A DNA stretch of 63,656 nt from a virus, in IMG/VR virus record IMGVR_UViG_3300036859_000369, positions 1 to 63,656 of that record; one strand, 5' to 3'. The translations under genes were made by a program, and so were the position numbers. Position 1 is the stretch's first letter. Each line of letters begins with the position of its first letter. The notes under the pieces were generated by a model that made no database searches, had not been told where the DNA came from, and saw only the letters and a program-made list of their open reading frames with translations. Shown here in pieces: positions 24,177 through 58,440 of the stretch.

Positions 24177-24769
24177 GGTCCGGCCTCCGGCCTCGGTGCT
24201 TTCTGCATCACGACACAGATGTCTCCGAGATGCGGCCATCTCGGATCGGCGTTGCCGCGCTCGACGGTCTGGAGATTGAACCACGGGCCATCCGGAAAAT
24301 AGATCCGGCCATAGTCCTGATACAACGGATGCAACGGCCAGAAGTAACAGAACGTCTCTTCGTGAAACACTCGACGGTGGGTCGGATCGCGGAACGACAC
24401 CGGGTTATTCCAGGCTGCCACCCGAATGACCAGTTGTCCGTCGTCCGTCAGGATGCGCCAGCATTCGCGCAACCAGACATCCACGTCTGCCCGCAAGTGC
24501 TCGAACACATCAAGTGCCACAATCTTCTGAAATCGGCCGTCTGGAATCGGCCAGTTCAGATGCCGATTGCCACCGACCACGTCGAGATCAATCACGATAT
24601 CCACATAATCGGCATGCTTGCGGATATCGTGATTGACGGCCCCTTCTATCGGTCGATTGCCGCACCCGAGATGCAACACTTTCCGGTTGGCCAGCGCTTC
24701 GAGTTGTTCGGCCACGATCGCCCCGGACACCGTCATAGGCTTCGTGATGTACTCTGTGACCTTATCCAC
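24173..24769 (-). CDS. SAM-dependent methyltransferase
   Basis: 198 residues from a GTG start with AGGAGG 6 bp upstream. Motif I is KVLHLGCGNRPIEG; a D-x-D acidic strand (VDIVIDLDVVGG) and KIVALDVFEHL follow, as in class I methyltransferases acting on small molecules or sugars. Position within glycosyltransferases suggests it methylates a glycan. Confidence 0.85.
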   Translation of the reverse strand: MDKVTEYITKPMTVSGAIVAEQLEALANRKVLHLGCGNRPIEGAVNHDIRKHADYVDIVIDLDVVGGNRHLNWPIPDGRFQKIVALDVFEHLRADVDVWLRECWRILTDDGQLVIRVAAWNNPVSFRDPTHRRVFHEETFCYFWPLHPLYQDYGRIYFPDGPWFNLQTVERGNADPRWPHLGDICVVMQKAPRPEAGP

Positions 24770-25976
24770 GGATAGCCTCCTCAAAGCGGCTGACAGGCTT
24801 CTGGGAACGTTCTAGCCGTCCTTCTATCTCGGTCAGTGCCGGTGCCCAGAATTCCCGGGTCACGGTGTCCGCATCGTACGACATTGCGCCACTGCGACTG
24901 TCAAAAGATCGATCGCTGTACCGCCCATGGCCGGTCAAGTACGCTTCCCGCATGCGCTGGTAGATAGCGTCCTCGTGGCCCCACCACTGATACGCGGCTA
25001 GCGGGTTGTGGTACCGGGTTGCCTCATCCTTCGAGACTTTCCAACCGGCGAAACAGAGCTCGGACATCGCCGTCCAATCGCCCACGATCGACGGGATACC
25101 ACAGGCGGCTGCCTCCAGGATCGGGATACCGAATCCCTCGCCCATGCTGACCGATGTCAGGACGTTGAAGCTGCAATACAACGCCCGCATCTCTTCAGCT
25201 TCTAGCCCGAAGTGATAGGCGTCCGGCTGGGTCCAGGAAACGGCATCCCCAACGCCCAGTTGCTCGACGTACTCGGCCAGGTTCTCGCCGCCGATGTTGC
25301 GTAGCCCGGATGTGTCGGCCCGGGTATGCAGGTACATCCGTGTATCGGGGTGCTCTTTGTGCAGACGGGCGAATGCTGCAAGCTGGGGTTTGAACGCCTT
25401 ACGGGATGGCGTGCCAACGTTGGCAGCGACCATCCCGATGATAAAGTCGTCTCGCGGGAGACCGATCAGTGCGCGGGCCTCCTGTCGATCCATTGGCGTG
25501 TACGCGTTCGTGTCCACACCATGCGGAATGTACAGCGGCTCAATGCCGGCATCCCGACACATCCGCTCAGCGAACCGTGAAAACACCATCGGCACAACGA
25601 CCGGCAGGATATTCGGATTCGTCAATCGCATCTTGATGCAATTTGGCAATGGCTCCGAATCAACCGGGAACCATGGGGCGATCGATATACCGCCAGTGAC
25701 ACCCTGGGGTAACGCCCAGATATCCATCAGACTGATGATCACATCGGCGTTGTGATGCTTCGCCGGTACCGCCATCGATTCGTAATCGATGCCACCGGAT
25801 GCCGCCGCCGGATAGATCGTGATGCCGTCCGATTCGACGCGTCCGCCCTGGATGCCCCAGTACGCGGCTATCGCGATGTCATGGCCGAGATCCCGGATAC
25901 GCTTGACAAACAGCTCGGTTTGATTGCCGTATCCAGATCCCGCGTGTGGGGCGTTGGAATACCAGAGGATGCGCAC
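24762..25976 (-). CDS. Glycosyltransferase family 4 (GT-B)
   Basis: 404 residues. N-domain start MRILWYSNAPHAGSGYG; C-domain has FIIGMVAANVGTPSRKA and the retaining GT4 motif MGEGFGIPILEAAACGIPSI (E-x7-E). It should add a hexose-type sugar from a nucleotide donor. First gene of the sugar cassette in transcription order. Confidence 0.9.
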   Translation of the reverse strand: MRILWYSNAPHAGSGYGNQTELFVKRIRDLGHDIAIAAYWGIQGGRVESDGITIYPAAASGGIDYESMAVPAKHHNADVIISLMDIWALPQGVTGGISIAPWFPVDSEPLPNCIKMRLTNPNILPVVVPMVFSRFAERMCRDAGIEPLYIPHGVDTNAYTPMDRQEARALIGLPRDDFIIGMVAANVGTPSRKAFKPQLAAFARLHKEHPDTRMYLHTRADTSGLRNIGGENLAEYVEQLGVGDAVSWTQPDAYHFGLEAEEMRALYCSFNVLTSVSMGEGFGIPILEAAACGIPSIVGDWTAMSELCFAGWKVSKDEATRYHNPLAAYQWWGHEDAIYQRMREAYLTGHGRYSDRSFDSRSGAMSYDADTVTREFWAPALTEIEGRLERSQKPVSRFEEAIRG

Positions 25977-27198: not shown

Positions 27199-28158
27199 CT
27201 ACTGTACCGCCGAACTGAGGAAGGTTCCGGCGCGCGTGGCAGTGGCGGCCTGATCAAAATAGGTGTTGCCCTCGATGATGTCAACCTCGCGCTCTTCGTC
27301 CCGCATCCGCTTGATGTACTGGAGCGCGTTCGGGACCACCTGCCAGACGAACGTGTAACCAGCCGCCGGCTGCTTCAAGCTCGGCCGCTCCGGCACGTAC
27401 AGGAACAACGCGTTCTTTCCCCAGATCCGGGTATAGGTGACGGACCCTTCGGCCGTCCCCTCTGGATCGGTCGTATAGATCGCCCGGCCAATCAGCAGCT
27501 TCGGAACCTCGAAGAGGCTGGCCGCCAGATCGATCGACATCACGCCGCGTTGTGTGTACTTGATAGTGTCGATCAGGTCCGGATGCCATTTGAGGGAATT
27601 CCAGACCTGTTTGCCGAGCACGACGGTGTTGGGCGCACGGCCGATCCGCGACTCGATTTCATCTTCGTAGGTTGTGAAGTCGGTCAACGGACTACTGCTA
27701 GCGTAGTCGTCCCAGCGGGTGAAATCGGTCCCGCCGGCCTCGTCGTCGCCCCAGACGCCCGTTTTGAAAAAGTCGGTCGCAAAGGCGATTTCGCGCCTCA
27801 TGGCGACCTTGTCTGAGACGAAATCGACGGCATCCGCCTCCAGGTTCTGGAACGGGCCGTCTGCGTTCTTCCGCTCCTCGTCCGAGATTTCGTCTCGGAA
27901 TGAGTAGCGGGGGCAGTAGTAGGTCTGCGTCTTGTCGATCGACCAGCCGCCCCCCTCTGACTTCGATCGCGGCAACCGCAACCGGGCGCCGTCACGGAAC
28001 CAGTGGCTCTGGTCGTACTTCGGGACGATGTCCGACTGCTTGTTCACCATCAAGATCGGGAAAATCTGGTCCGCGATGTAGTTGAGATTGGAATAGCCAA
28101 TGCTCATGTTCGTGAGCATGGCGTCAACATGCAGATCACTCGCCAACGGTCCGGGCAT
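27199..28158 (-). CDS. Major capsid protein
   Basis: 319 residues. Features of a major capsid subunit: an N-terminal LHVDAMLTNMSIGY lead, a central long helix region (EEISD..NLEADAVDFVSDKVAM), and NTVVLGKQVWNSLKWHPDLID, VPKLLIGRAIYTT near the C-terminus, the last two being widely seen in phage coat proteins of the HK97 fold. It lies after the protease/scaffold and decoration genes, as usual. Confidence 0.82.
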   Translation of the reverse strand: MPGPLASDLHVDAMLTNMSIGYSNLNYIADQIFPILMVNKQSDIVPKYDQSHWFRDGARLRLPRSKSEGGGWSIDKTQTYYCPRYSFRDEISDEERKNADGPFQNLEADAVDFVSDKVAMRREIAFATDFFKTGVWGDDEAGGTDFTRWDDYASSSPLTDFTTYEDEIESRIGRAPNTVVLGKQVWNSLKWHPDLIDTIKYTQRGVMSIDLAASLFEVPKLLIGRAIYTTDPEGTAEGSVTYTRIWGKNALFLYVPERPSLKQPAAGYTFVWQVVPNALQYIKRMRDEEREVDIIEGNTYFDQAATATRAGTFLSSAVQ

Positions 28159-28186: not shown

Positions 28187-28585
28187 CTAGAATGCCCGCT
28201 TTGGCGCACCGGTCGCATCGATGTCCACAGTACCGATCAGGTCGGCCACGTTGACACCTTCTTCCACGAAACAGACCGGGTACGCTGCCGTGCCGCCGAC
28301 ACCAACCGCATGTACCGTGCCTTTGCCGGCGCCATCGGTGCCGACCATATTCGTGCCGGTCGCGATCGATCCGCCGAAAATCAAACGGCTGACCCCGGCC
28401 CGCATCACGAGCGCGGGCTGGAGACTGCCCGGGGCGTTCTGGAGAATGCCGTACGGGACATCCGTGGTCGCTGCACACAGGACAGCCTGACCGCTGCTGT
28501 TCAGCTTGACAAACTTGTACTTGTGTGTGGACAGATCAGCCCCAGCCTGCCGCGTCACGCTGTACCGGTCCTTTTCAAACGCCAT
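28187..28585 (-). CDS. Capsid decoration protein (DUF2190-like)
   Basis: 132 residues. A start with YKFVKLNSSGQAVLCAATTDVPYGILQNAPG is the recurrent pattern of DUF2190-type decoration proteins (K-x-V-x-L-x-x-G...GVLQN). It trims the assembled capsid surface. Located between scaffold/protease and major capsid. Confidence 0.78.
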   Translation of the reverse strand: MAFEKDRYSVTRQAGADLSTHKYKFVKLNSSGQAVLCAATTDVPYGILQNAPGSLQPALVMRAGVSRLIFGGSIATGTNMVGTDGAGKGTVHAVGVGGTAAYPVCFVEEGVNVADLIGTVDIDATGAPKRAF

Positions 28586-28663: not shown

Positions 28664-30739
28664 CTAGACCTTGACGCGGGCAGCCTCGCCGGCTCGCTTT
28701 GCCAGGTCCGGATGCTCCGATGCAATCTGACGCTGGGCCTCGCCAATACCGATACCCTTTTCAGCGGCGCGCTTCGTGGCCAGGGCCGTAATCTGTTCCT
28801 GGGGATCAGCGCTCGTCTCGGCGGATGACGTGCCGGCCTCCCCGAACAGGTTCGACGTACGCAACTGCTCGGCCAGCGCTCGCTGCTGGGCGACATAGCC
28901 AGTGAAGAGCTCGTGGTCCTCGCCCACCGTGGATGACAGGTGTTCCAGGTGCGCAACATGGGCGGCCGGCTCACCGAACCAACGCGGCCCGCCGCTTTCA
29001 GCCTTGCCGGTTACTTCCTCAGTAAACCGCTTGCGCCGGGCATCGCGCTCCATGGTCTGGACGCGCTCAGCCAGTTGTGTCGCCTGTGTGGCGGACTGCT
29101 CGGCCGTCGCCTTGCTGGCTTCAAGCTCGGCCGCGATCCGCTTGTTTTCGGATTCCAGCTCGCTCATGCGCCGCGACTGTTCCTCAGTCATCGCAACCGG
29201 GGTGCTCTCCGGCTTCGGGTTGGGACTGGCCATCGGACTCGCCTCCTCTGTGCTGTGTGGCGCATCTTCCGATGCCGCCAGGGATCGCAGCGCCGCTGGC
29301 TTGAAAAACGGGCGCGTGGTCAACGCTGCGCCCATCAAGATGTTTTCATGCGTCTCACCGTTGATCGGGTCTCGCCATTCGTCATACCAGGCCGGACTGA
29401 TGTAGAAGAACCGATCATCGCGCAAGGCGTCGGCCCCGCGCTCGTTCCATTCCACAACCGCGTCAACCGACCCGTCCGTATTCGTTACGAGATCCGTAAT
29501 CCACCCGGCTGCCCCACCCAGCAACGTCTCGTGCTCCAGGTCAATTGGCAGCCGGTCCTGGTACACGTGGTCCTGGAAATTCTGCACGAACGACGCGATC
29601 CGATCCGGGCTCATATCGATCTTGCCGTAAGCCGGATGCGCGTACGACCCCGGGACCGGCAAGATCGGAATGGTCGCCGGCGGTTCTATGTACTGCCGTT
29701 CAGACATCACGAGCGGCATGTCTCGGTACGGCACACCCCGGAGCGCGAACGTCTCGCGACCAGCCTCGTCCCGGCTGGACGATACCGTCAGGTTGTCCAG
29801 TGGGACCGTCACATCCGGTAGCGCCACTGTCATGGCGCGCCCCGGTTCAACGTAGGCGAGTGTCACGTGCGGGGTAAACGCATGATCGGATCGCGGCGAC
29901 AGGCCGGCTTCATACAGGGCCATGCACAGGCGCCAGCGAAAATCCTGGAGTCCTCCACAGTCCACGACCGCATAGATGACGTCCTTACCGTCGCTGCCAT
30001 GCTCCGCGCTAAACCGACTCACGCCACACAGGCGCAGCTCGATCGGCTGCACCGTCAGTGCGAACGCCTGTACCGCGATCCGTAGCCGCTCAGTGGCATC
30101 GCCCGGCAACTCGTCTGACTTGCCGAGATAGGCGAGTGTCAGGTGCAAGTCGCCGGGCAGCTCGCCTCCGGGAATGGCGATCTCGTTTGCCACATCGGAC
30201 GGCAGCCAGAATCCGACCCACAGGCTATCGCCTTCGGCTGCCGTGAATGCTTCGGCGGTTACGCGGTTGCGGGCTTTCGCCACGCCGCCTGCATAGCCGG
30301 CCGCCGCTCTGATGATCGCTTTGAGATCCGCATCCGACAAGTCGCCGTCCTTGATCTTGGACTTGATCAGGTCGCGCAGTTTGCCCAGATAGTCGGCATT
30401 CGGCTCGGCCAGGTACTCCGGCTTGATGGCCTGCATCGCCAGTCGTTGCGCCAGATCCGTCACACCATCCGCGCGTTGATCATCCGGCCAGCCGATCTCG
30501 TCCAGGCACAAGTCCGCGATATCCTGGGTCGTCACGCCTTCCAACATGGTCGGCATGGATTCGGTGCCCATGACGACGCCATTGGCCTGCGCGAATGCGG
30601 CCGACTCGGCATCCTTGTCGGACTTGCCGTCCTTTTTGGCTCGTGCATATGCCGAATTCCACACAGCAACCCATTTGCGCTGGTCCTTTTTGTCCAGCTT
30701 CTTGACGGCATCGGGCACCGTGGCTAATGTGTACGGCAT
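28664..30739 (-). CDS. ChaB-like / 2H phosphoesterase-like / prohead protease / scaffold fusion
   Basis: 691 residues from MPYTLATVPD. Residues 1-55 resemble ChaB. Residues ~160-300 form a 2H (LigT-type) domain with paired HLTLAY (199-204) and HVTLAY (291-296) motifs. Residues ~350-490 match Mu I-type proteases (DRLPIDLEHETLLGGAAGWI, FFYISPAW). Residues 500-691 are a charged, Ala-rich coiled coil typical of scaffold. The protease would mature the prohead and remove scaffold; the 2H domain suggests RNA or cyclic-nucleotide cleavage. Such a four-part chain is unusual. ATG 18 bp after a terminator hairpin. Confidence 0.85.
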   Translation of the reverse strand: MPYTLATVPDAVKKLDKKDQRKWVAVWNSAYARAKKDGKSDKDAESAAFAQANGVVMGTESMPTMLEGVTTQDIADLCLDEIGWPDDQRADGVTDLAQRLAMQAIKPEYLAEPNADYLGKLRDLIKSKIKDGDLSDADLKAIIRAAAGYAGGVAKARNRVTAEAFTAAEGDSLWVGFWLPSDVANEIAIPGGELPGDLHLTLAYLGKSDELPGDATERLRIAVQAFALTVQPIELRLCGVSRFSAEHGSDGKDVIYAVVDCGGLQDFRWRLCMALYEAGLSPRSDHAFTPHVTLAYVEPGRAMTVALPDVTVPLDNLTVSSSRDEAGRETFALRGVPYRDMPLVMSERQYIEPPATIPILPVPGSYAHPAYGKIDMSPDRIASFVQNFQDHVYQDRLPIDLEHETLLGGAAGWITDLVTNTDGSVDAVVEWNERGADALRDDRFFYISPAWYDEWRDPINGETHENILMGAALTTRPFFKPAALRSLAASEDAPHSTEEASPMASPNPKPESTPVAMTEEQSRRMSELESENKRIAAELEASKATAEQSATQATQLAERVQTMERDARRKRFTEEVTGKAESGGPRWFGEPAAHVAHLEHLSSTVGEDHELFTGYVAQQRALAEQLRTSNLFGEAGTSSAETSADPQEQITALATKRAAEKGIGIGEAQRQIASEHPDLAKRAGEAARVKV

Positions 30740-30795: not shown

Positions 30796-31006
30796 TTCCT
30801 CGGACGGGAGAGCGTATAAGGGTGGGCCGGTTGGCGAACCTACTCGGGCAACGGGTCCGCGCGTCCCGTACGGTCCTTTTCACATTCGCCAACGAGCCCA
30901 GGAAAGCGGATTGGCGGTGTCCCAAGATATAAGGCCGGCGCCGGCCCCTTGTTCGACCACCGTTCCGCTATCAGTCAGTGTACTCTAGTTCTCTCCAGGT
31001 TGTCAA
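30796..31006 (-). promoter_or_regulatory. Candidate promoter and structured leader RNA of the head operon
   Basis: On the minus strand TTGACA (31001-31006) lies 18 bp from TACACT (30977-30982). The leader then carries a 14-bp palindrome (30933-30946), a 9-bp long-range stem (30885-30893 with 30830-30838) enclosing an ACGGG/CCCGT hairpin, and finally the terminator. No ORF with a ribosome site occupies it. It looks like an attenuator or put-like antitermination leader; promoter strength uncertain. Confidence 0.5.
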
Positions 31007-31705: not shown

Positions 31706-31819
31706 TCACATCGTCAACCGAAACCAGAAACACCGCAGCAGATCCCGCCACCGATCATGCACCCATCCATCGCTCGCGCCGGAACGGTGCATGTGCCCTC
31801 CACAGCATGCACAGGTCAT
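31706..31819 (-). CDS. 37-residue cysteine-containing coupled ORF
   Basis: Starts MTCACCGGHMHRSG; ATG overlaps the MuF-like stop (ATGA). The CxCC...H cluster suggests metal binding; the rest is Trp/Arg-rich. Short, no family; kept because of the coupling. Confidence 0.45.
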   Translation of the reverse strand: MTCACCGGHMHRSGASDGWVHDRWRDLLRCFWFRLTM

Positions 31820-32433
31820 GCAGCATCCTTCCGGTTGCCGCGCATCTCCAGTGTGCATCGGCACCGCGACAGGCATTGACGCGCACCGATCGGCACCATG
31901 TCGTCGGGGTCGACCCAACCTCTCGCCGTAATCCCCTTACACTGCTCGCAGCTCTCCTGTGCATGCAGGATGTTGCGAACCTGCGTGATGCCCCGTCGTT
32001 TGCCCTCGCGCAATCGGATCATTTCGTATGTCGTTCGACCGGCTTCGGCATACATCGCAACCCGTACATCAATCCGGCCGTTCAGCGCTTGCTTACCACT
32101 GATGATATCGGTCAGGAATCCACGCATATACTGGTACTGCTCTTTGATCAGATGTCCGGTGTACCCGTATCGTTCGGGTGTCATGGCGTTCTTGCCGCCA
32201 TAGGCTGCTAACGCCGATGCGATGTGGACGTCCTTGATAACACGGAACATGCCATCTCGGAATGCGTCGATACCGATCTTCCCCTCTCGGAGATCCTGGG
32301 CTAGACTGACCGCGCGTGCCGATGCCGCGTTGACGGTTGCGTCTACGCCGTCACGGACGCTCGCTTCCGGCACAAACCGGCCGCGCCCATCACGGAAACG
32401 GCCGGCCGACTCTGACCAGGAAAAATCAGCCAC
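31816..32433 (-). CDS. MuF-like head morphogenesis protein
   Basis: 205 residues. Helical N-domain, then YAEAGRTTYEMIRLREGKRRG and a C-terminal CEQCKGITARGW, RQCLSRCRCTLE zinc site, the recurrent end of Mu F-like minor head proteins (often 'CxxC...G...CRC'). It probably sits near the portal and is injected or required for head assembly. Lies between the portal operon and protease/scaffold. Confidence 0.82.
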   Translation of the reverse strand: MADFSWSESAGRFRDGRGRFVPEASVRDGVDATVNAASARAVSLAQDLREGKIGIDAFRDGMFRVIKDVHIASALAAYGGKNAMTPERYGYTGHLIKEQYQYMRGFLTDIISGKQALNGRIDVRVAMYAEAGRTTYEMIRLREGKRRGITQVRNILHAQESCEQCKGITARGWVDPDDMVPIGARQCLSRCRCTLEMRGNRKDAA

Positions 32434-34257: not shown

Positions 34258-34577
34258 GGCGCCCTCCCGCGTTTCGCCGCGCGCTCATTCCATTTCAACG
34301 TACCAACGCGATCCCGCTCTCTCATCTCGATGTCGGCATAGTTGCCGAGTTTCACGGCGCGGATGCTGTAGCGCGCACGTGTCCCGTGTGGCAGTCGTCT
34401 CCGTGGGACCACGCGCCTGATATCTCGCACCCAGTAGACCGTACCCCCGCCGTTACCGCGTGTGGTCAGTGTGCGCAGGTATCGGATAGGCCGCATCGGG
34501 TCGTCGGGCAATGCATCATCCGATCGCCAGTCATACGGACTGATCGTCACGACATCACCCACGGCTGCGCGTTTCAT
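34254..34577 (-). CDS. 107-residue basic protein, unknown
   Basis: MKRAAVGDVVTISPYDWRSDD: an SH3-like start, arginine-rich centre (DIRRVVPRRRLPHGTRARYSI) and basic end. Coupled to the portal stop. A small nucleic-acid-binding or head accessory role is possible. Confidence 0.62.
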   Translation of the reverse strand: MKRAAVGDVVTISPYDWRSDDALPDDPMRPIRYLRTLTTRGNGGGTVYWVRDIRRVVPRRRLPHGTRARYSIRAVKLGNYADIEMRERDRVGTLKWNERAAKRGRAP

Positions 34578-37042
34578 GGCGCCGTCACGTCCTCTAGTGG
34601 GGGCAGCTCCATCGTCTCACGGATGGCGTTCTCTAGTCCGTTATCCGGGGTCAAGCCGCCGGCCGTTAGCAGTTTGGATACCGAGTCCGAAAATTCCCGG
34701 ACGTCCTTGCTACTGATGTCCTCATGGGCGAGGGTCGGATTGAGATCCGGCGCCATGCCATTCAGACGGATCAATCGGGGGATACCGTGTGTATTGACCA
34801 CGTCGCAGATCCCGTCAACCCAGGCTCCGAGTGCCACGGCAAACAGATCGGTTTTATCCGAGCTCAATGCCCATGACCCATGCTGTTGCGCGCCCAACAG
34901 CATAAAATCAGCCAGCACAGACATCAACATCCGCTGGTCGTACCGCGTGATGATCGCGCCGGTATCAAACTGACGCGTTCCGCCGGTTGAAAGCAGGGTC
35001 ACGTCAAACAGCTTGTTGCCATTGGCATCATACGCCTGTGGCATGACCGCGCCCTCCCACTCATCCCGGCGCATCGCGGTCACCATCTTTTTGGCGTATT
35101 CGTAGACGGCCGTCTGCCCGGCTGTTGCGGTTGAGGCGTCCATGTAGGACGGGGGTAGCCAGGCAACCGGATAGCCGACAAGGTCACGTTCGACACCGAT
35201 CGCCTCGATGTTCTCAATTCTGGACTTATACCGCCAGGGTCGGTACGCCGTTCTCAGAATCGAAAGTCCCTCCGGGTTACCTCGGTTGCTCTCTGTCCGG
35301 AACAGCAACGCCTTTTCAATCGGGATAATCCTGGTTGTGTAGTCAGGTGGGGCACTCTGAACAAACGCCTGTGTCCCGCCGTTTTCGTCAAACTGCCATT
35401 CCCAGAGCGTATCTTGTGAGCGGATCGGCCATTTCCGCCAGCCAATCCGTCCATCCGTGAATCTCGACCGGTGCGACGGATCGCGGCTGTCGCCATCCCG
35501 GATCTTGTAGACGGTCTCGTGATACGAATTCGAGACGACCACCGGCCCGGCGCAGAACGTGTGATCCTGCTCTATTTCCAGATCATAGACCGTGCCCGTA
35601 TACTCCTCGTGATCCACACTCTGGATAACGTGCTCGACTGCACCGTCACGCACATGGCACTGCAACCCATGTGGTGAAACACTTCGCTCCCGGAATAGCC
35701 ATGACCGTACGGCCGCAATGGTCACGCCGTACTTTTCGGCGATCATACGCCACGGCTTACCGTCTGCCCGCATAGACCGTGCATCATCTCGCTGCTCCTG
35801 CGAAACCCTCAGCGGGTGCGTAACAAATCGCTCCGGCACTGCCCCTACTTGCCAGTAACTCGGCCCGGTGATCTCTCGCCCCTTCAGCACTGACGTATAA
35901 CCACCCTTACGCCATACAAGCGGAGACGGGTACCCCAGCGCGCCCCCTATCAACTGCATCTGGTGAGCCAGGGTACGACTGACTGTTGCCGCCGACGCAA
36001 CCCGATAATCTCGGCCGGCGCGTGTAATCGTCGCCTCATGACCGTCGCCCCAGATCCACCCTTCCCAGATCCCCCGTGCAAATTCTGACGAATCCGGCAT
36101 TTTCCGTAAGTGCTTATTCGTCGCACGATCGCCGCCCACCCATTCCTCGATCATCTGACGGATGTGAGGGCTGGAGACGGTCACCGACCCTCCGTTAGGC
36201 TTTCGTATCGCCGTCCGTGCACGGGGGGTTTCCCCATATCGGTTGATGAGTTGATTGGCCTCGGAGAATCGGTCAATCTCAGCGGCCAAGATGTCCAGCT
36301 CCTTACGATGCACGGCAAAATGAACCAGGTGGCGTTTATCCTTCGGGAGATGCCCCTCGGCAAGGTACACCCCCACGATCCACCCGGCATCGTAGTCCCC
36401 ATCCGGTAGCATTTTGGGCCGTGGGCGCAACAATGTGTCTCCCACCGACAGATCCCCTGCCTGTTTCCACCCGTCCAACGTCGGAACACGATGCTCCGGT
36501 GTCATACGAACAGGATGCGGATAGCCTCGCATTTTTAGTGTGACCATCGAACCGGCATGTCGTCTTGTAAATACATGGGACACACGTCGCGCTCGCCCCC
36601 TGCCAGTCAGAACCAGGTCGCCAACGGAGATGTCTGCTATTGGCCTCGGTTCGCCGTTCCCCATAAGCACCAACTGGTCTGGGGGCAAGCAGTATCCGTA
36701 CCATAGAAACGACACGATGTCCGATATCGTTTCTTTCCAGGACATGGACATATCATGGAACATCGCGCCGTCGATAAACTCGGCTATCTCTAGCGCTGCG
36801 TTGTCCTGAGATGCGGGATCGATGCGGAATTTCATCTGTCGAATGAGCATTTTGAATGCAAAGGTCAGTGCGCCAATCACCGGATCATTCTGCGTCATTT
36901 GTTTGATAACGTTGATCTTATTGCGACCACGTAATTCCGGGAGCTGCTCGTCGTCAACCTGGCCGGCCGACCGGACGATACCGGTCACGCCGATCTCTTC
37001 TAACGGCGCGGTTGTGTGTCGGCCGGTCCCGTTGACAACCAT
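34574..37042 (-). CDS. Portal protein containing an intein
   Basis: 822-residue precursor. Residues 1-117 and 506-822 are portal exteins, meeting at WYGY|SYHETVYKIRDG, the conserved portal core. Residues 118-505 are an intein (see separate entry). The mature 434-residue portal would form the dodecameric vertex that threads DNA and binds terminase. C-extein features include QDTLWEWQFDENGG, LGAQQHGSWALSSDKTD. Splicing depends on Cys118 and Ser506. Next to terminase, as usual. Confidence 0.93.
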   Translation of the reverse strand: MVVNGTGRHTTAPLEEIGVTGIVRSAGQVDDEQLPELRGRNKINVIKQMTQNDPVIGALTFAFKMLIRQMKFRIDPASQDNAALEIAEFIDGAMFHDMSMSWKETISDIVSFLWYGYCLPPDQLVLMGNGEPRPIADISVGDLVLTGRGRARRVSHVFTRRHAGSMVTLKMRGYPHPVRMTPEHRVPTLDGWKQAGDLSVGDTLLRPRPKMLPDGDYDAGWIVGVYLAEGHLPKDKRHLVHFAVHRKELDILAAEIDRFSEANQLINRYGETPRARTAIRKPNGGSVTVSSPHIRQMIEEWVGGDRATNKHLRKMPDSSEFARGIWEGWIWGDGHEATITRAGRDYRVASAATVSRTLAHQMQLIGGALGYPSPLVWRKGGYTSVLKGREITGPSYWQVGAVPERFVTHPLRVSQEQRDDARSMRADGKPWRMIAEKYGVTIAAVRSWLFRERSVSPHGLQCHVRDGAVEHVIQSVDHEEYTGTVYDLEIEQDHTFCAGPVVVSNSYHETVYKIRDGDSRDPSHRSRFTDGRIGWRKWPIRSQDTLWEWQFDENGGTQAFVQSAPPDYTTRIIPIEKALLFRTESNRGNPEGLSILRTAYRPWRYKSRIENIEAIGVERDLVGYPVAWLPPSYMDASTATAGQTAVYEYAKKMVTAMRRDEWEGAVMPQAYDANGNKLFDVTLLSTGGTRQFDTGAIITRYDQRMLMSVLADFMLLGAQQHGSWALSSDKTDLFAVALGAWVDGICDVVNTHGIPRLIRLNGMAPDLNPTLAHEDISSKDVREFSDSVSKLLTAGGLTPDNGLENAIRETMELPPLEDVTAP
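35528..36691 (-). mobile_element. Intein in the portal gene with LAGLIDADG endonuclease and a helix-turn-helix insert
   Basis: 388 residues, 118-505 of the portal. Block A begins CLPPDQLVLMGNG; block B has TPEHRVPT with the conserved T-x-x-H; LAGLIDADG helices are AGWIVGVYLAEGH (219-231) and ARGIWEGWIWGDGH (322-335); block F is VYDLEIEQDHTF; the end is VVVSN followed by Ser. The usual penultimate His is Ser504. Residues ~416-452 (MRADGKPWRMIAEKYGV..) read as a helix-turn-helix between endonuclease and block F, uncommon in inteins. Confidence 0.92.
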
Positions 37043-37781: not shown

Positions 37782-39395
37782 TCACCGCATCCATGGCTCA
37801 TCCGATCGCGGAATACCTGTCGGTGTCGGGATCTCTACCTCACGGTCGGCTGGCTCCCAGAATGCCTGTATGACGCTGTCACCATCATCGGTCGACCGCC
37901 CGAGTCGTTCTGGTTTCCGCAGTTCATCCTTTGACTCGACCTTGATTTTCCCGGTCCCCTGCACCCGATATTTCGGGGCAGTCAGGTCGCCTGTCAAGGT
38001 GTCGTCAGGTGGCAGCGCGATGTTCTCCCCGTACGTTGGGTCCAAGAGCTCTCTCAAGTGCCACCACGCTGCGCTCCGGGTGTCTGCCGCTCCGAGCTCA
38101 CCAGACCGGTCCCGCCAGTCCTCGCCGGTTGGTTGCTTCGGACTGGCACCCGCGATGAACGCGTAGACGTTGCGGACCTTTTCTTCACGGAGTCGATGCA
38201 ACGTGCCAGCCCCGATGCCGATCGCGTCAATCATCGCCCGTCCGCCATGGGCGTCCAGTATCCCCTTGATGCGACCGGCCGTCTCCATCGTGTCGGCCCG
38301 CTGGAATCGGCGGATCTCCGAGATGATGTGCATCTGCCGGAGCGCGAATGTTGTTTTGTCGGCCCGGTCGGACCCGCTACCCACGTCGACACCCAGCGCG
38401 GTAAAGGGCGGCCAGATGTACTCTGGGTCATCCATGATCTCGCGCCAGCGGTCCTGGGCCGCTTCCACCCACGCCAGCGGTATCACGCTGTCCTCGTCAG
38501 ATGCCGCGAATTCTCCGAGTACGCGATTCTGATAGACCGCGCTCCCGGTCCCCCACTGCTTTGCCCGTTGCTCGGCCCACTCACGAGACATCCGTCCGGC
38601 CACTATCGCCTCTTCCATAGTCACATGCCGGACGTACCAGTCCTCGGTACCGGGGGCTCGACGGTGGATCTCATAAAACCGGCCAACCGGTTCCCCCGGG
38701 GTACTGCCGGCCATGGCAAACGCTTCCCCCTGGCCAGACAGTGCCCCTTCGAGCGCATCAAACGTTTCGGCCGGGATCGTTTTCGACTCATCGAACAGGG
38801 CCAGCAGTCGGTCCGCGTGCGCCCCTTCCATGTTCTCGGGGGTGTCTGACGCCATTGCGAACGCCTCGCCCGTCCGCAGTTTGAGTGAATGCATGAGCAG
38901 CTCGGTGCGCCGGTCGAACGGGTCGCGACCGATCTTATCCCAACGCAGCCGTCGTGCCCATTTCCGTATCTCGGGCCAGAGGTATTTCGTCAACTGGCGC
39001 CAGGCTGATGCCGTGGTCGGGATCTTCCAGTCCTCACCATCCCGGGTCAACGCGTACCATAAGGTGACCCACGCCATCATCGCCGTTTTCCCCATGGTAT
39101 GCGGCCCACGAAATGAGACGCGCTTATGGACCGGGACCGCCGCCATGATCTCGTCTTGATACCCGGCCGGCCCCTCACCGTCGCGCCAGTCGATCATGTC
39201 GTGAACCCAGGCAACCGGATCGTCCTTATAGATCCGCCAGACAGTTGACTGTTGCCGGGCCTGTTCCTGGGTGCGCTGATCTTCAGTCAGCCGGGCGATC
39301 CGCTCGCGTTCGCGTTCTGCTTCCTGCGTCGCTTCCCATTCGAGCTCGGCCAGGAACGCGACTTCTGGTGTGTACGGTGCCCGTCGTACCATCAA
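37782..39395 (-). CDS. terL: Terminase large subunit
   Basis: 537 residues. ATPase: Walker A-like RGPHTMGKTA (about 95-104) and Walker B ALFDESK with the catalytic Glu. Nuclease: GVDVGSGSDRAD begins the RNase H-like domain and AMIDAIGIGAG supplies its second acidic residue. It pumps DNA into proheads and cuts concatemers. Coupled by ATGA to the ABA-sandwich gene upstream, with portal downstream. Confidence 0.94.
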   Translation of the reverse strand: MMVRRAPYTPEVAFLAELEWEATQEAERERERIARLTEDQRTQEQARQQSTVWRIYKDDPVAWVHDMIDWRDGEGPAGYQDEIMAAVPVHKRVSFRGPHTMGKTAMMAWVTLWYALTRDGEDWKIPTTASAWRQLTKYLWPEIRKWARRLRWDKIGRDPFDRRTELLMHSLKLRTGEAFAMASDTPENMEGAHADRLLALFDESKTIPAETFDALEGALSGQGEAFAMAGSTPGEPVGRFYEIHRRAPGTEDWYVRHVTMEEAIVAGRMSREWAEQRAKQWGTGSAVYQNRVLGEFAASDEDSVIPLAWVEAAQDRWREIMDDPEYIWPPFTALGVDVGSGSDRADKTTFALRQMHIISEIRRFQRADTMETAGRIKGILDAHGGRAMIDAIGIGAGTLHRLREEKVRNVYAFIAGASPKQPTGEDWRDRSGELGAADTRSAAWWHLRELLDPTYGENIALPPDDTLTGDLTAPKYRVQGTGKIKVESKDELRKPERLGRSTDDGDSVIQAFWEPADREVEIPTPTGIPRSDEPWMR

Positions 39396-48768: not shown

Positions 48769-49587
48769 TCAGTGTGCGTGCGGGATATCCCGGAGATCCG
48801 GACCGTCCATCTCAATCGGTTCAGCCATCCGCTTGACCCGGCCCCAGATGCGCGGCCCGAAATACTCGGCCATTTCGGCGTGTCCGTGCTCGTCTACGGT
48901 CGCCAGGTTGCTCGTAATGATGGTCGGCAGATGGTGGTCGTGCCGGTACCCCAGGATTTCGTACAGGAATTCGCCAACCCAATCCTTTGGCACTTCTGTG
49001 CCCATGTCGTCCAGGAACAACCAGCGCACGGCTCGCAGTGACTTACGCAACGCTTCCTGTTCCTCGGAATTGCCAAACGTCGCCCGCACATCCGCCAGCA
49101 ACGACGGCACCGTCCGGAACAGAACGGACTCGCCGCGCTCGGCCAGTTCGGCCGCCATGCCGCCGGCCAGGGTGGTTTTCCCTCTCCCGCTCGGACCATA
49201 CAGCAACAGCCAGTGATGACTGTCGTGGTCCACCTTCGGATCGTCAAGCCAGCGGACCGCTCGTCTGACGGCCGCATGGTCCGGATGCTCTCGCCACGGA
49301 TAGGTCCGGTACTCCGGCGGCAGTTGCGCCTCTCCGAACCTCCGGCGGATCGCTCGCTGCACCCGCTCCTGGCCAGCCGGGCACGCGCATTCGACGGTCT
49401 GCCCGAATCGGTCGTCCGTGGGTGGCACATCCAGCCGGAGTAGCCCGACCCCGAGACACCGGATGCATGTCGCTTCGTCCGGCTGGTAGTCATCATCGGG
49501 CCGGGGGTTGATCGTGACATACCGGGCAACCCAGTCGGCCGCCTGATCCGGTGTCAGCTTCGAAATGACCGCCCCGACCTTCCTCAT
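48769..49587 (-). CDS. DnaC-like helicase loader (AAA+ ATPase)
   Basis: 272 residues. An N-terminal CIRCLG...CACPAGQ zinc site (about 41-72) like DnaC/DnaI-type loaders; Walker A GPSGRGKTTLAG (about 133); Walker B WLFLDDMGTE; sensor-1 TIITSNLATVD. It should deposit the host replicative helicase at the phage origin in cooperation with the O-like initiator just upstream (ATGA overlap). Confidence 0.9.
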   Translation of the reverse strand: MRKVGAVISKLTPDQAADWVARYVTINPRPDDDYQPDEATCIRCLGVGLLRLDVPPTDDRFGQTVECACPAGQERVQRAIRRRFGEAQLPPEYRTYPWREHPDHAAVRRAVRWLDDPKVDHDSHHWLLLYGPSGRGKTTLAGGMAAELAERGESVLFRTVPSLLADVRATFGNSEEQEALRKSLRAVRWLFLDDMGTEVPKDWVGEFLYEILGYRHDHHLPTIITSNLATVDEHGHAEMAEYFGPRIWGRVKRMAEPIEMDGPDLRDIPHAH

Positions 49588-50999
49588 ATCCCGCGCTCCC
49601 GGCCCTCTGCTTCGATCTCAGCCAGAATCTCGGCTTTGATCGCCTGTTCCCGCGCTTTCATCCGCTTGATGTTCTCGTATTCGGACGGGGCGAGCTGTCC
49701 GCCCATCCGGAATCGGTCGCCTGGCCGCCCCTGTTGCGTGCCCCCACGTGCAGGTGCACCCGCGTGCCCGTTCGTCTGTTTCGGCCGACCTTGCACGACC
49801 CATGCCGTGTAATCGTTGATCCGATCACAGATATACCACACAGAGAGATTGCCCTGCACGCCATTGCCGCCCCACTCACGTCGGTATGCGGCAATGTAGG
49901 CGGCTGCGATCGCCTCGGCATCGGCCCCGCATTTCTTCACAGCACCCGCGTCCCGGGCTGATGGGGTGTACGGCACATCGGCCGCGCGGATACCGTCGAT
50001 CACAGCGGCATATTTGTTGGGTGTCTTTTCGGGGGGTGCTGCGCGTCGATTCTGGACGCCTGATTTCGTGGGGGGTGTACTTTGACGCAACCGGGGCACC
50101 GGACGCGCCTGACGCGCCGCTCCGGGGCTCTGGAGGGCACTCCTGACCTTCCGTGTCAACCACGGTTTGGCCGGGTCTGGCCCCGGGGTGGCTAATTGAG
50201 ACTGATTCTCACGTGGACTAGCCAGAGGTCCTGACGGTTCTTTCACTAAGGCAGGTGGTGTGTCGGTCGCCGGTTCGATCAGTTGTTTGGCATATGGACC
50301 CAGGATGATGTCAGACCACGCGGCTAAACTGTTTTCTTCGGTTTTGACCGATGGCGTCCGATCCGGAATGAGCGTAGCGAATGTAGGATCGGAACGGGGG
50401 TCCGGGGGCAGCGCCCCCGAAGTACCTTCTACTTTTTCTTGTAATACTATTCTTTGTGACCGTACAGTTTTGCTGGTCCCCCCTCCGTACAGTTTTGCTG
50501 GTCCCCCCTCCTGGTCATTTTCGGGGGGGACCGTACCGTTTTGCTGGTCCGGGTAGGCAAAACTTTCCGGAGCATCGGAAACATGCAAACTGTATCGAGT
50601 CGGAAGGCTCCCGCCATCGGGCGCCGTCATGGTCGTGGCGCGAATCATGCCCATGGATCTCAGGTCGCGAATGGCTTGCAACAGCGACCGCTCAGACAGG
50701 CCAGTCCCGTGGTCTAATCGAGTGCCGTCCCTCCGAGTGATGCCGTGCATCAGTTGATCTAAACTGATGGTGTCGCCGTCAGGCTGTCCGAATCCGTAGG
50801 TGCGCCGTGTGATGTAGAGAATCACGCGCAATTGAGACAGCGTAAGCGATACCATCCACTGATCGATGATCGTGTTTGGGACCGGCGTCGTATTCGGCGC
50901 GGTCAACCATTTCGGCGCACCATCCGTCTCACCCGTCACGTATTCCGGCGATTCTTCGCGGACACGGCGCGGCGCGGATGTGCTAAACTGTCTACGCAT
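49584..50999 (-). CDS. Replication initiator, phage O-like
   Basis: 471 residues from MRRQFSTSAPRRVRE, GGGAGG upstream. Residues ~30-150 form an O-type winged-helix (PNTIIDQWMVSLTLSQLRVI, ITRRTYGFGQPDGDTISLDQ, LSERSLLQAIRDLRSMGMI). The linker (about 150-330) is low complexity and contains DNA repeats (50460-50550) coding P-x-K-L-Y-G-G-G. A C-domain (AEAIAAAYIAAYRREWGGN) likely contacts the loader. As in lambda, the origin may lie in this gene. Confidence 0.85.
   Translation of the reverse strand: MRRQFSTSAPRRVREESPEYVTGETDGAPKWLTAPNTTPVPNTIIDQWMVSLTLSQLRVILYITRRTYGFGQPDGDTISLDQLMHGITRRDGTRLDHGTGLSERSLLQAIRDLRSMGMIRATTMTAPDGGSLPTRYSLHVSDAPESFAYPDQQNGTVPPENDQEGGPAKLYGGGTSKTVRSQRIVLQEKVEGTSGALPPDPRSDPTFATLIPDRTPSVKTEENSLAAWSDIILGPYAKQLIEPATDTPPALVKEPSGPLASPRENQSQLATPGPDPAKPWLTRKVRSALQSPGAARQARPVPRLRQSTPPTKSGVQNRRAAPPEKTPNKYAAVIDGIRAADVPYTPSARDAGAVKKCGADAEAIAAAYIAAYRREWGGNGVQGNLSVWYICDRINDYTAWVVQGRPKQTNGHAGAPARGGTQQGRPGDRFRMGGQLAPSEYENIKRMKAREQAIKAEILAEIEAEGRERGI
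50460..50550. repeat. Iterons in the initiator gene: candidate replication origin
   Basis: Two tandem identical 25-bp units (50460-50484, 50485-50509), each beginning CCGTACAGTTTTGCTGGTCC, and a third partial copy at 50531-50550. Beside them an A/T-rich stretch (50429-50459) could melt, and a GGGGGC/GCCCCC hairpin lies at ~50403-50419. Iterons plus AT-rich DNA inside an O-like gene copy the lambda origin layout. Confidence 0.65.
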
Positions 51000-51092
51000 C
51001 GAGCCAACCTCCCAGATAATCTCGATGCCGTGCCCAGAACGTTGACAGCGTTGCTGGGCATTTTCTATGGCATCGCGGCAGTATAGCACGGT

Positions 51093-56533: not shown

Positions 56534-57757
56534 TCAGTCGTGGACGCAGACGATACACGGACACGTCGGACCGCCAAATGCTTCATGCCAAAGATATCTC
56601 AAGGCAATTTCAGCTTGGGCAGGTACGACCGCGTTCCCCGCTTGCCGGAGGCGGTCAGTGCGTGGGCAGTTGCACCCCGGCACGTCCAGCCGATGCCATT
56701 GTTCCGAAACATCAGCCAATCCGTAAACCACGGATTCAGGCGTAGCAGGCGCCAGCCATGGGCTAGATCCGATGATGTCGCGCCATCTGTCAGGGTCGCC
56801 GGGTCCGGGCGGCCAATCAGGTCCGGGGTTGCTCGAACTGCCTGCCGTCCGAGCAACCCGTTCGTCGGTACGTTCACGTCCTGACAGGCGCCGTCCTTCC
56901 AGTCCCGTGACGTTGCCGTCATCCAGTGGCGAGCCTGCGATGACAGGTCCACCTGCCGCTTGCCACGATCCGTCATCCCCTTTGCTGCTACGTCCCGCGC
57001 GTTCATCAGGCGGCCGCCGTTCGGTACATTGGCCGTCATCCATAGGCGTTGTGACACTTCCTGTGCCACGATCCCCAACGGCCCCTGACCGACCCGTCCT
57101 GTGTGGTGCATGTTGCGCGCATGCCATCCGTCCGGATGTTCCGACTGATTGAACAGACCGGCGTCCGGTGTGGGCCATGTCTGGCCGCCATCCGAATATG
57201 AAGAGTCGGATCCGGCGGTGTGGCGCGCCTGCGTCAGACGCTTTGACCACCGCGCACGTAAACCGGTAGCCCAGCGCTTGAAGATCCTGGCCGATTCTTC
57301 CGAGTCCGTCCGGGTGTCCGATGAGGTTGCTAACGTTCTCAATGAACACCAGGGGAGGGCGCATTTCTCCCAGGACGCGGGCCGTCTGTGCCCACAGATC
57401 CCGCGTATCAGCGGCACCGGCCTGTCGCCCTGCCACTGAGTACGGCTGGCATGGAATTCCGCCGACCAGTAGGTCAGCACGGCCGCGCAACGGTCGTCCG
57501 TCGAACGTGCGAAGGTCGCTCCAAACAGGTGCCGCAGGTAGGCGTCCGCTTTCCATATGCGACGCCAGGACGACGACGTTTGTAAGCTCGATTTCCACAT
57601 ACACGAGCGGGACAATGCCACGGATAACCCGGTGAATGGCGAGATCAAGTCCACCGACCCCGCTACAGACGCTAACGACGGTTGCAGGACGGTTTCGGGC
57701 ACATAGACGAACATCGGTGCACGGACCCCCTCTGACGGCTCGCTCAGACCGTCTCAT
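56534..57757 (-). CDS. Cytosine-C5 DNA methyltransferase
   Basis: 407 residues from MRRSERAVRGG. Motif I SVCSGVGGLDLA; motif IV GGIPCQPYSVAG with the catalytic Cys; motif VI FIENVSNL; motif VIII GAPHRRIRLFIF; motif X QAGNAVVPAQAE. The target-recognition region is long (about 210-340) and low-complexity. The N- and C-parts read in this frame. The same strand in another frame (56599-57714) also gives protein-like W-x-T-P-x-A... and LNPWFTDWLMF segments. Protects phage DNA from restriction. Confidence 0.9.
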   Translation of the reverse strand: MRRSERAVRGGPCTDVRLCARNRPATVVSVCSGVGGLDLAIHRVIRGIVPLVYVEIELTNVVVLASHMESGRLPAAPVWSDLRTFDGRPLRGRADLLVGGIPCQPYSVAGRQAGAADTRDLWAQTARVLGEMRPPLVFIENVSNLIGHPDGLGRIGQDLQALGYRFTCAVVKASDAGAPHRRIRLFIFGWRPDMAHTGRRSVQSVGTSGRMACAQHAPHRTGRSGAVGDRGTGSVTTPMDDGQCTERRPPDERAGRSSKGDDGSWQAAGGPVIAGSPLDDGNVTGLEGRRLSGRERTDERVARTAGSSSNPGPDWPPGPGDPDRWRDIIGSSPWLAPATPESVVYGLADVSEQWHRLDVPGCNCPRTDRLRQAGNAVVPAQAEIALRYLWHEAFGGPTCPCIVCVHD

Positions 57758-58440
57758 GATCTGTCCTGGGCGGGCTTGTGTCGCCAGATGCAGCCCGTAC
57801 AACGACCGTGGCTAGCGTACGCATAGTCCGTCGTTCCGCAATCCTCACAGACCGTGTAAAATCGCGACCAGCGCGGGGTTGGTGCGTCGATCCGGTAGGT
57901 ATCTGTCGCCGGACGCGCTACCAGTCGATACCCAACACCCGAGCACGACAGGAACAGATCGCCACATGGATGCAACCGTCTACGCACACGCGACATATGC
58001 GAACGCAGGAACGCAAAGATCCCGTTTTTTGGTACACGGTCAACGGGATCGTCGCGCCCCCATACGGCAGCAACTATGTCCCCGACTGGCACGGCTGCAT
58101 CCAGATGCTCAGCCAGATACAACACAGTCCGGATCTCTAGCGGCCCCAGGTGAATGTCCCGTCCATTGACCAGCACGGTTGCCCGTGTCGGATCGATCAC
58201 CAGTCCGCCGGTCCGGACCACCTGTCCGCGTTGTGGGCCGGGGGACAGGGACATGCCGTATTCTTCGTGGGTAAGCGGATCGTGCAGCACCACATACCGC
58301 GAAAATACCTGCCCGATAATGAGTACCCGGACTCGCCGGCACGTCTCGCCGCAACCCGCTCCGCGCCATTCCCGGTCTGTCAGCGCGTCGCCCGGATCGG
58401 TCCCGCGTGTGCTATACTGATCGTGCTGCTGACCTGCCAT
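57754..58440 (-). CDS. OmpR/PhoB-type winged-helix protein with C-terminal zinc ribbon
   Basis: 228 residues from MAGQQHDQYS. Residues ~75-175 match a trans_reg_C domain: LVIDPTRATVLVNGRDIHLG, LEIRTVLYLAEH, VWGRDDPVDRVPKNGIFAFL, GVGYRLVA. There is no receiver domain. The C-terminus has CEDCGTTDYAYASHGRCTGCIW, a ribbon. Probable transcription regulator with unusual ribbon tail; ATGA overlaps the methyltransferase. Confidence 0.83.
   Translation of the reverse strand: MAGQQHDQYSTRGTDPGDALTDREWRGAGCGETCRRVRVLIIGQVFSRYVVLHDPLTHEEYGMSLSPGPQRGQVVRTGGLVIDPTRATVLVNGRDIHLGPLEIRTVLYLAEHLDAAVPVGDIVAAVWGRDDPVDRVPKNGIFAFLRSHMSRVRRRLHPCGDLFLSCSGVGYRLVARPATDTYRIDAPTPRWSRFYTVCEDCGTTDYAYASHGRCTGCIWRHKPAQDRS

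Follow-up and report, generated by a model that had tools for sequence, protein, structure and literature searches.

Entry into the prohead is obligatory for prohead proteases, which afterwards break down the scaffold and themselves, as in HK97, T4, lambda and Mu. Maturation removes most of the protease in HK97 and T4. The gpI/Z product of phage Mu is a protease with a Mu-like_Pro domain, a His/Ser pair and an in-frame nested start for the scaffold, and Mu gpI is not known to have a 2H domain. Enzyme domains on head proteins have been described in other systems. According to the available text of Iyer et al. (2017; PMC5512222), 2H phosphoesterase domains are fused to MuF and portal proteins in polyvalent phage proteins, and were predicted to be packaged and injected and to act as RNases or as degraders of defence nucleotides. 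The same text describes assemblin-like (prohead-type) peptidases in polyvalent proteins, which are stated to be always C-terminal. Moreover, Nudix domains of the NudE type are fused to MuF, to portal and to a capsid-processing serine peptidase in the accessible sections of PMC9503650, where packaging was proposed. These arrangements, namely 2H–MuF and 2H–portal fusions, polyvalent assemblin-like peptidases and Nudix on a prohead peptidase, are already published.

A fusion of 2H with a prohead protease is not named in the available text of PMC5512222, the images of whose Figures 4A and 5B may show one, and the open-access literature, in its text as distinct from its figures, yielded none that names it. 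In the Arthrobacter/Microbacterium phages Kovu, Edmundo, Ottawa and ValentiniPuff, a 2H domain lies ahead of Peptidase_S78_2 (XkdF), near portal/MuF genes; the protease family differs from the Mu I type found here. Public records label such 2H–XkdF fusions either 'RNA ligase' or simply 'capsid maturation protease', and the whole fusion is named neither in the records nor in the available text of PMC5513430 or PMC7302621. Virion proteomics was not found in these portions of PMC5513430, and those of PMC7302621 contain one SDS-PAGE, of another phage.

Architecture of the fusion protein and its head operon

The window, i.e., the whole stretch of viral DNA that was analysed (63,656 nucleotides, IMG/VR record IMGVR_UViG_3300036859_000369), encodes a protein of 691 residues in which a 2H domain is followed by a Mu I-type protease and a scaffold (Table 1). 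The ATG at 30739 is a putative start codon, since the reading frame stays open upstream to a TTG at 30925; the protein of a relative, L035, likewise starts with MPY.

Table 1. Positions of the fusion gene, its parts and the neighbouring head genes in the window.
Feature	Position	Strand	Remark
Fusion ORF, 691 aa	28664..30739	-	ChaB-like, helical module, 2H phosphoesterase, Mu I-type prohead protease, scaffold
ChaB-like N-terminal helices, aa 1-56	30572..30739	-	divergent, under the Pfam cut-off
Helical module, aa 114-162	30254..30400	-	terminates in an AGG.xKAxxR-type stretch; present in 2H-less protease relatives too
2H phosphoesterase domain, aa 172-332	29744..30226	-	17.4 kDa, in the cargo slot
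Catalytic motif 1, H199-x-T201	30137..30145	-	
Catalytic motif 2, H291-x-T293	29861..29869	-	
Linker, aa 333-355	29675..29743	-	pLDDT <50 at 336-351; candidate self-cleavage place
Mu I-type protease domain, aa 356-480	29300..29674	-	His403 and Ser448
Scaffold, aa 503-691	28664..29233	-	nested in the same frame; internal ATG preceded by AGGAGG
Terminase large subunit	37782..39395	-	PHROG
Portal protein split by an intein	34574..37042	-	Pfam, PHROG
MuF-like minor head protein	31816..32433	-	no Pfam match; own reading
Head protein next in the operon	28187..28585	-	phrog_673, head scaffolding
Major capsid protein	27199..28158	-	Pfam, PHROG

The protease part was matched by Pfam Mu-like_Pro at residues 379–564 (E 4e-12, 46.9 bits, cut-off 25.2) and by the PHROG head maturation protease phrog_328 at residues 385–644 (6e-15), and its His403 and Ser448 were invariant in 5/5 aligned Mu I-type relatives. 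With a score above the cut-off and both residues present, the domain is assigned by its sequence to the Mu I-type prohead proteases (PF10123). The scaffold part was coiled-coil/helical in the full-length model and opened with an in-frame ATG (M503) located 8 nt downstream of AGGAGG. The internal ATG with its Shine–Dalgarno sequence was present in 4/4 inspected proteins (window, L011, L035 and L040), and the major capsid gene lay downstream of the protease in the window and in 4/4 Mu I-type relatives. In the Mu-like_Pro domain, the His/Ser pair and the in-frame scaffold start, the window protein resembles Mu gpI/Z. The first-pass annotation had placed the 2H domain within a capsid maturation protein, ahead of a Mu I-type protease and scaffold, and the Pfam and PHROG matches and the nested ATG confirmed this arrangement. 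The ChaB-like domain also claimed there is the weakest part of the architecture. At the level of a profile, five N-terminal sequences together matched the ChaB structure 1sg7 at 1.6e-8, a value that may be driven by one clear ChaB row (L176); the N-terminus alone (residues 1–58) scored 17.8 bits against Pfam ChaB (PF06150), below the cut-off of 27. The likeness was clearer via the relatives L035, L172 and L176.

The full-length model had a mean pLDDT of 66.7 and showed low-confidence linkers on both sides of the 2H domain, at residues 150–170 and 336–351; because it was built on an alignment of only n=5 sequences, these linkers may be just poorly predicted. None of the 35 matching phage-collection records covered 80% of the window protein at one place (by our count of the matched ranges, 19 fell in the 2H part and 16 in the protease part), 14 kb of window DNA gave no DNA match in the same collection, and patterns from the single protein retrieved no relative for the whole protein and one for the 2H domain.

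Along the minus strand, the head operon runs from the terminase through the portal with its intein, small genes, the MuF-like protein, the fusion protein and a small head protein to the major capsid protein. Over 159 residues, the MuF-like protein shared 25% identity with the N-terminal region of L172, where by our own reading a MuF-like Cys cluster is present. The portal intein was marked by Pfam Intein_splicing at residues 152–505 and by Hint-type matches, and the portal relative in L040 aligned only over residues 2–118 and 466–818. The two ends of the record carry a direct repeat (1–179 versus 63478–63656, 178/179 bases identical). Hence, the record appears terminally redundant and is probably complete.

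Fold and catalytic motifs of the 2H domain

The domain is a member of the 2H phosphoesterase superfamily: it has two HxT motifs, a Pfam score above the cut-off and structural matches with Z up to 17.8. Pfam 2_5_RNA_ligase2 matched residues 198–310 (E 5e-12, 46.5 bits, cut-off 27), LigT_PEase scored 26.1 bits (cut-off 23.3), and PHROG phrog_14859, 'RNA ligase', matched residues 166–318 (1e-17). The motifs HLT (199–201) and HVT (291–293) start 92 residues apart, and this pair, on which the 2H assignment had first been proposed, was upheld by the Pfam score and by H199 and H291. Viral contigs were scanned for further 2H domains; 252 loci were confirmed, and the best 80 gave 61 nonredundant ORFs, or 62 with the window (the best-80 set). 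H199, T201 and H291 were present in 62/62 aligned domains of this set and T293 in 58/62, the remainder being 2 Ser and 2 Cys. Since the loci came from motif patterns, each motif was checked solely in rows found via the other one: rows found via motif 1 only had the motif 2 His in 28/28 and Thr in 24/28 (2 Ser, 2 Cys), and rows found via motif 2 only had the first HxT in 25/25. A chance match or a dead domain was rejected on the basis of the Pfam and PHROG scores, the model with pLDDT 94 and the kept catalytic motifs.

The 2H domain was modelled from the alignment of the 62 nonredundant phage domains, with a mean pLDDT of 94.1 and a pTM of 0.88. Its best solved matches were 5h7e (Z 17.8), 1iuh (Z 16.8) and 1vdx (Z 16.1), with E. 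coli LigT at Z about 16; Usb1 (Z near 14) and the rotavirus VP3 2'-5' phosphodiesterase (Z 13.6) ranked lower. The Foldseek ranking was similar, and a sequence profile of 8 phage 2H domains retrieved the same LigT-type structures, whereas phmmer with the single 2H sequence reached only E 0.98 as its best value against solved structures. The LigT/ThpR enzymes (5h7e, 1iuh, 5ldi/5ldm, 1vdx) were thus closest in fold and profile. The window domain scored 30 bits against the ThpR/LigT equivalog TIGR02258, under the NCBI cut-off of 65.7, although the closest fold was nevertheless LigT/ThpR. These are cellular single-domain enzymes, and the window 2H stood apart from the 15 chromosomal sequences of this kind in the tree described below.

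According to the available text of PMC9117128, Acb1 (T4 gp57B) is a phage enzyme against nucleotide signals that shares the 2H fold and the HxT/HxT tetrad with the window domain. Acb1 is small and stand-alone, whereas the window 2H is a domain of a fusion, was negative for Pfam Acb1 (PF23474; no match on the window protein at E <= 0.1 nor up to E 10) and matched Acb1 structures at Z 9.7–10.1 only (7t26, 10.1), compared with 16–18 for the LigT types. From the Z ranking and the profile matches, the domain is LigT-like by fold and not close to Acb1, and membership of the Acb1 family was rejected. A stand-alone Gordonia relative (P0008) had a sub-threshold Acb1 match (E 0.009). The suggestion of the first-pass annotation that the enzyme destroys host cyclic-oligonucleotide signals as anti-CBASS phage 2H proteins do was therefore not sustained as stated, given the missing Pfam Acb1 match and a model nearer LigT/ThpR.

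The chemistry is likely a metal-free hydrolysis of a phosphodiester or cyclic phosphate, and the substrate type nearest by fold, judged from the model, would be an RNA 2',3'-cyclic phosphate, as for LigT/ThpR. RNA repair could be read from this likeness, with the 2H domain opening the 2',3'-cyclic phosphates that anticodon nucleases leave at RNA ends and letting the cut tRNA be sealed. The closest solved structures are indeed RNA 2',3'-cyclic phosphodiesterases, and a host ligase could still serve. However, RNA ligase (PF09414), RtcB, KptA/Tpt1, an AAA_33 kinase and a tRNA gene were all absent from the terminally repeated record of 63.7 kb. Moreover, such 2H domains are stated never to occur with RNA ligases in the available text of Iyer et al. 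(2017; PMC5512222). Because repair genes and tRNA are missing from a record whose terminal repeats fit a complete genome, a self-contained repair pathway is unlikely, and RNA repair as the function of this domain is considered distinctly improbable.

The exchangeable slot of the protease and the head partners of 2H domains

Viral contigs were also scanned with the protease domain alone, which gave 20 loci, 18 of them nonredundant. Of these protease relatives, 3/18 had the 2H domain, namely L011 and those on the L035 and L040 contigs, whereas 15/18 lacked it, and the helical module that precedes 2H was also found in relatives without it. About 15 residues separated the helical module from the protease in L171 and L174 (protease identity 53% and 46%). 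A different domain of about 90 residues filled the place in L170 and L172 (55% and 50%), and in L011 the 2H domain was followed by a stretch aligning to that 90-residue domain. L011, L035 and L040 were 35–41% identical to the window protein in 2H and 54–57% in the protease, and the relation was reversed between L086 and the same three proteins (2H 31–41%, protease 21–27%). Since the slot is empty or otherwise filled in close relatives, the position of 2H appears exchangeable and 2H dispensable for maturation. Hence, judged from these alignments, the domain behaves as an exchangeable passenger of the protease. This slot evidence is the new part with respect to the published theme of 2H domains in polyvalent proteins. 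In L172 (3462–6101), the MuF-like part, the ChaB-like part, the helical module, the domain of 90 residues and the Mu I protease all belong to one protein of 880 residues.

The slot bears on a structural or assembly role, in which the 2H fold would bind RNA, DNA or a head protein and catalysis would be incidental. Assembly proteins often gain extra domains, and the 2H domain belongs to the maturation protein, as such a role would have it. By contrast, close relatives without 2H retain all else, almost every member has intact catalytic residues, and 2H is found on dissimilar partners; a structural role is thus very improbable. Structural necessity of the domain is weakened by the relatives with an empty slot.

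The partners of 2H were surveyed in the best-80 set (62 proteins from the best 80 of 252 loci and the window). Pfam found XkdF-type protease in 18, S78 in 7, Mu I in 5, portal families in 8 + 2 + 2 and MuF in 6, and other enzymes among these proteins were histidine phosphatase, UDG, ART-PolyVal, Nudix, zeta toxin and DNA ligase. With per-member profiles, the counts in the same 62 were XkdF/S78_2 18, S78 6, Mu I 5, portal 12, MuF without portal 1 and capsid protein 1. Prohead proteases of three families were accordingly the commonest partner in the best-80 set (29/62). When the window was excluded, a head-protein match lay within the 2H ORF in 42/61 of the set, and the other 19 had a head gene at the fetched locus in 11 cases and none detected in 8; because the scan started from four 2H domains of head proteins, head-linked 2H may be over-represented in these counts. 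The 2H domain was placed ahead of Mu I and XkdF proteases and behind S78 and portal.

Among the loci from bacterial genome contigs, the best 20 had a phage-type look, 14/20 having a head-protein match within the 2H ORF, and the 60 weaker loci were mostly short ThpR-like ORFs with no head gene nearby in 57/60. In a quick tree of 104 rows, one branch (SH-aLRT 89) split 89 phage-type from 15 chromosomal ThpR-like sequences, and the head partner had to change at least 16 times. Support within the phage group was poor, with 47/101 inner branches unsupported, so single groupings are not reliable; the starred branches alone still force several changes. According to these sequence comparisons, the 2H–protease fusion is not an isolated case, and the same 2H clade is found on several inner-head proteins. 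On a Deinococcus gobiensis plasmid (P2; L189, 2714–4495), the window 2H matched inside a Mu-type portal gene (DUF935), with a separate phage protease adjoining it.

From the gene content, the locus has a polyvalent-type context: among late genes, an effector-type domain is attached to head proteins or adjoins them. The window protein shares with the polyvalent proteins in the available text of PMC5512222 a 2H domain on virion-head proteins. In contrast to the C-terminal peptidase stated there, the window protease precedes the scaffold, and the S78-type protease precedes 2H. Likewise, an enzyme sits on a prohead protease both here and in the accessible sections of PMC9503650, with Nudix there and 2H here. 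Large proteins pairing 2H with effector-type domains were also seen (L012, 5965–10623; L028, L042, L015, L016, L071, L070 and L026), the domains being DNA ligase, uracil-DNA glycosylase, histidine phosphatase, PI3/4-kinase-like, zeta toxin, and ART or Nudix. The XkdF protease is present in five of these multi-domain proteins (L012, L015, L016, L028 and L042).

Candidate function in the prohead and in the host

The preferred function of the 2H domain, which we hold to be moderately probable, is that of a cargo enzyme brought into the prohead by the protease, maybe freed there and delivered with the DNA. The 2H relatives on many inner-capsid proteins suggest loading into the particle and delivery with DNA, and packaging is the favoured course, since portals and MuF proteins, both components of the virion, also bear this clade. 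That the enzyme might be packaged and injected had been put forward in the first-pass annotation, and this idea gained from the repeated fusion to prohead proteases, portals and MuF and from the empty-slot relatives. In the prohead, the protease with its attached 2H would assemble together with the scaffold and the capsid protein and would then digest the scaffold and itself. The linkers flanking 2H may be cut at this stage, residues 150–170 and 336–351 being possible release places, and the freed compact 17 kDa domain would remain inside during DNA packaging. Retention is not automatic, given the loss of the protease in HK97 and T4. The domain would leave the particle together with the DNA when the next host is infected, and in that host it may hydrolyse 2',3'-cyclic phosphate RNA ends, or 2'-5'-linked or cyclic oligonucleotide signals. 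Such hydrolysis would blunt an RNA- or nucleotide-based defence.

The enzyme might instead work in the producing cell. According to a review (PMC12409349, available text), the prohead protease of Bas13 interacts with a CBASS sensor, which leads to growth arrest. If a phage prohead protease engages the CBASS sensor, a protease-tethered phosphodiesterase is by analogy an attractive idea: tethered to the CBASS-triggering protease, the 2H domain would destroy the cyclic nucleotide signal on the spot, without delivery. The share of prohead proteases among the partners in the best-80 set points in this direction, as does Acb1, a 2H enzyme with the same tetrad (PMC9117128, available text). However, portals and MuF proteins bear the clade as well, and the portions of the literature covered do not name them as CBASS triggers, the fold is closer to LigT than to Acb1, and the CBASS evidence comes from other phages. 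Action of this kind in the producing cell is therefore judged unlikely, and an anti-CBASS target of the window 2H is speculation. A 2024 paper and a 2026 preprint reportedly, by their titles, point to a link between prohead protease and CBASS.

Beyond the delivery of a single cargo enzyme, the hypervariable cargo slot might be a general loading system, in which the protease frees an exchangeable enzyme and arms the virion, and in which the 2H domain here may remove the CBASS signal that the protease itself provokes. This wider proposal is tentative and rather doubtful. If delivery of the cargo enzyme is true, a simple route of capsid loading would consist of fusing an enzyme to a protein that is obliged to enter the prohead and then cuts itself, and a family widely deposited as 'RNA ligase' would be tied to virion-delivered counter-defence. 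Forms of one protease with an empty slot, with 2H or with another domain would offer a natural comparison.

Several further features of the record were observed. A cytosine-5 DNA methylase lies at 56534–57802 and a replication O/IstB-like pair at 48769–51089, both on the minus strand. The glycosyltransferase at 24762–25976 (minus strand) has a relative that adjoins the 2H gene in L021/L022. Furthermore, a 55-base element occurs in six copies genome-wide (1495, 2179, 48120, 51884, 55971 and 62068); it has a palindromic start (like TATACCACGGTGGTATA) followed by a CTGTCAAGGGGTTTTC-like stretch, and it could be a repressor or promoter site.
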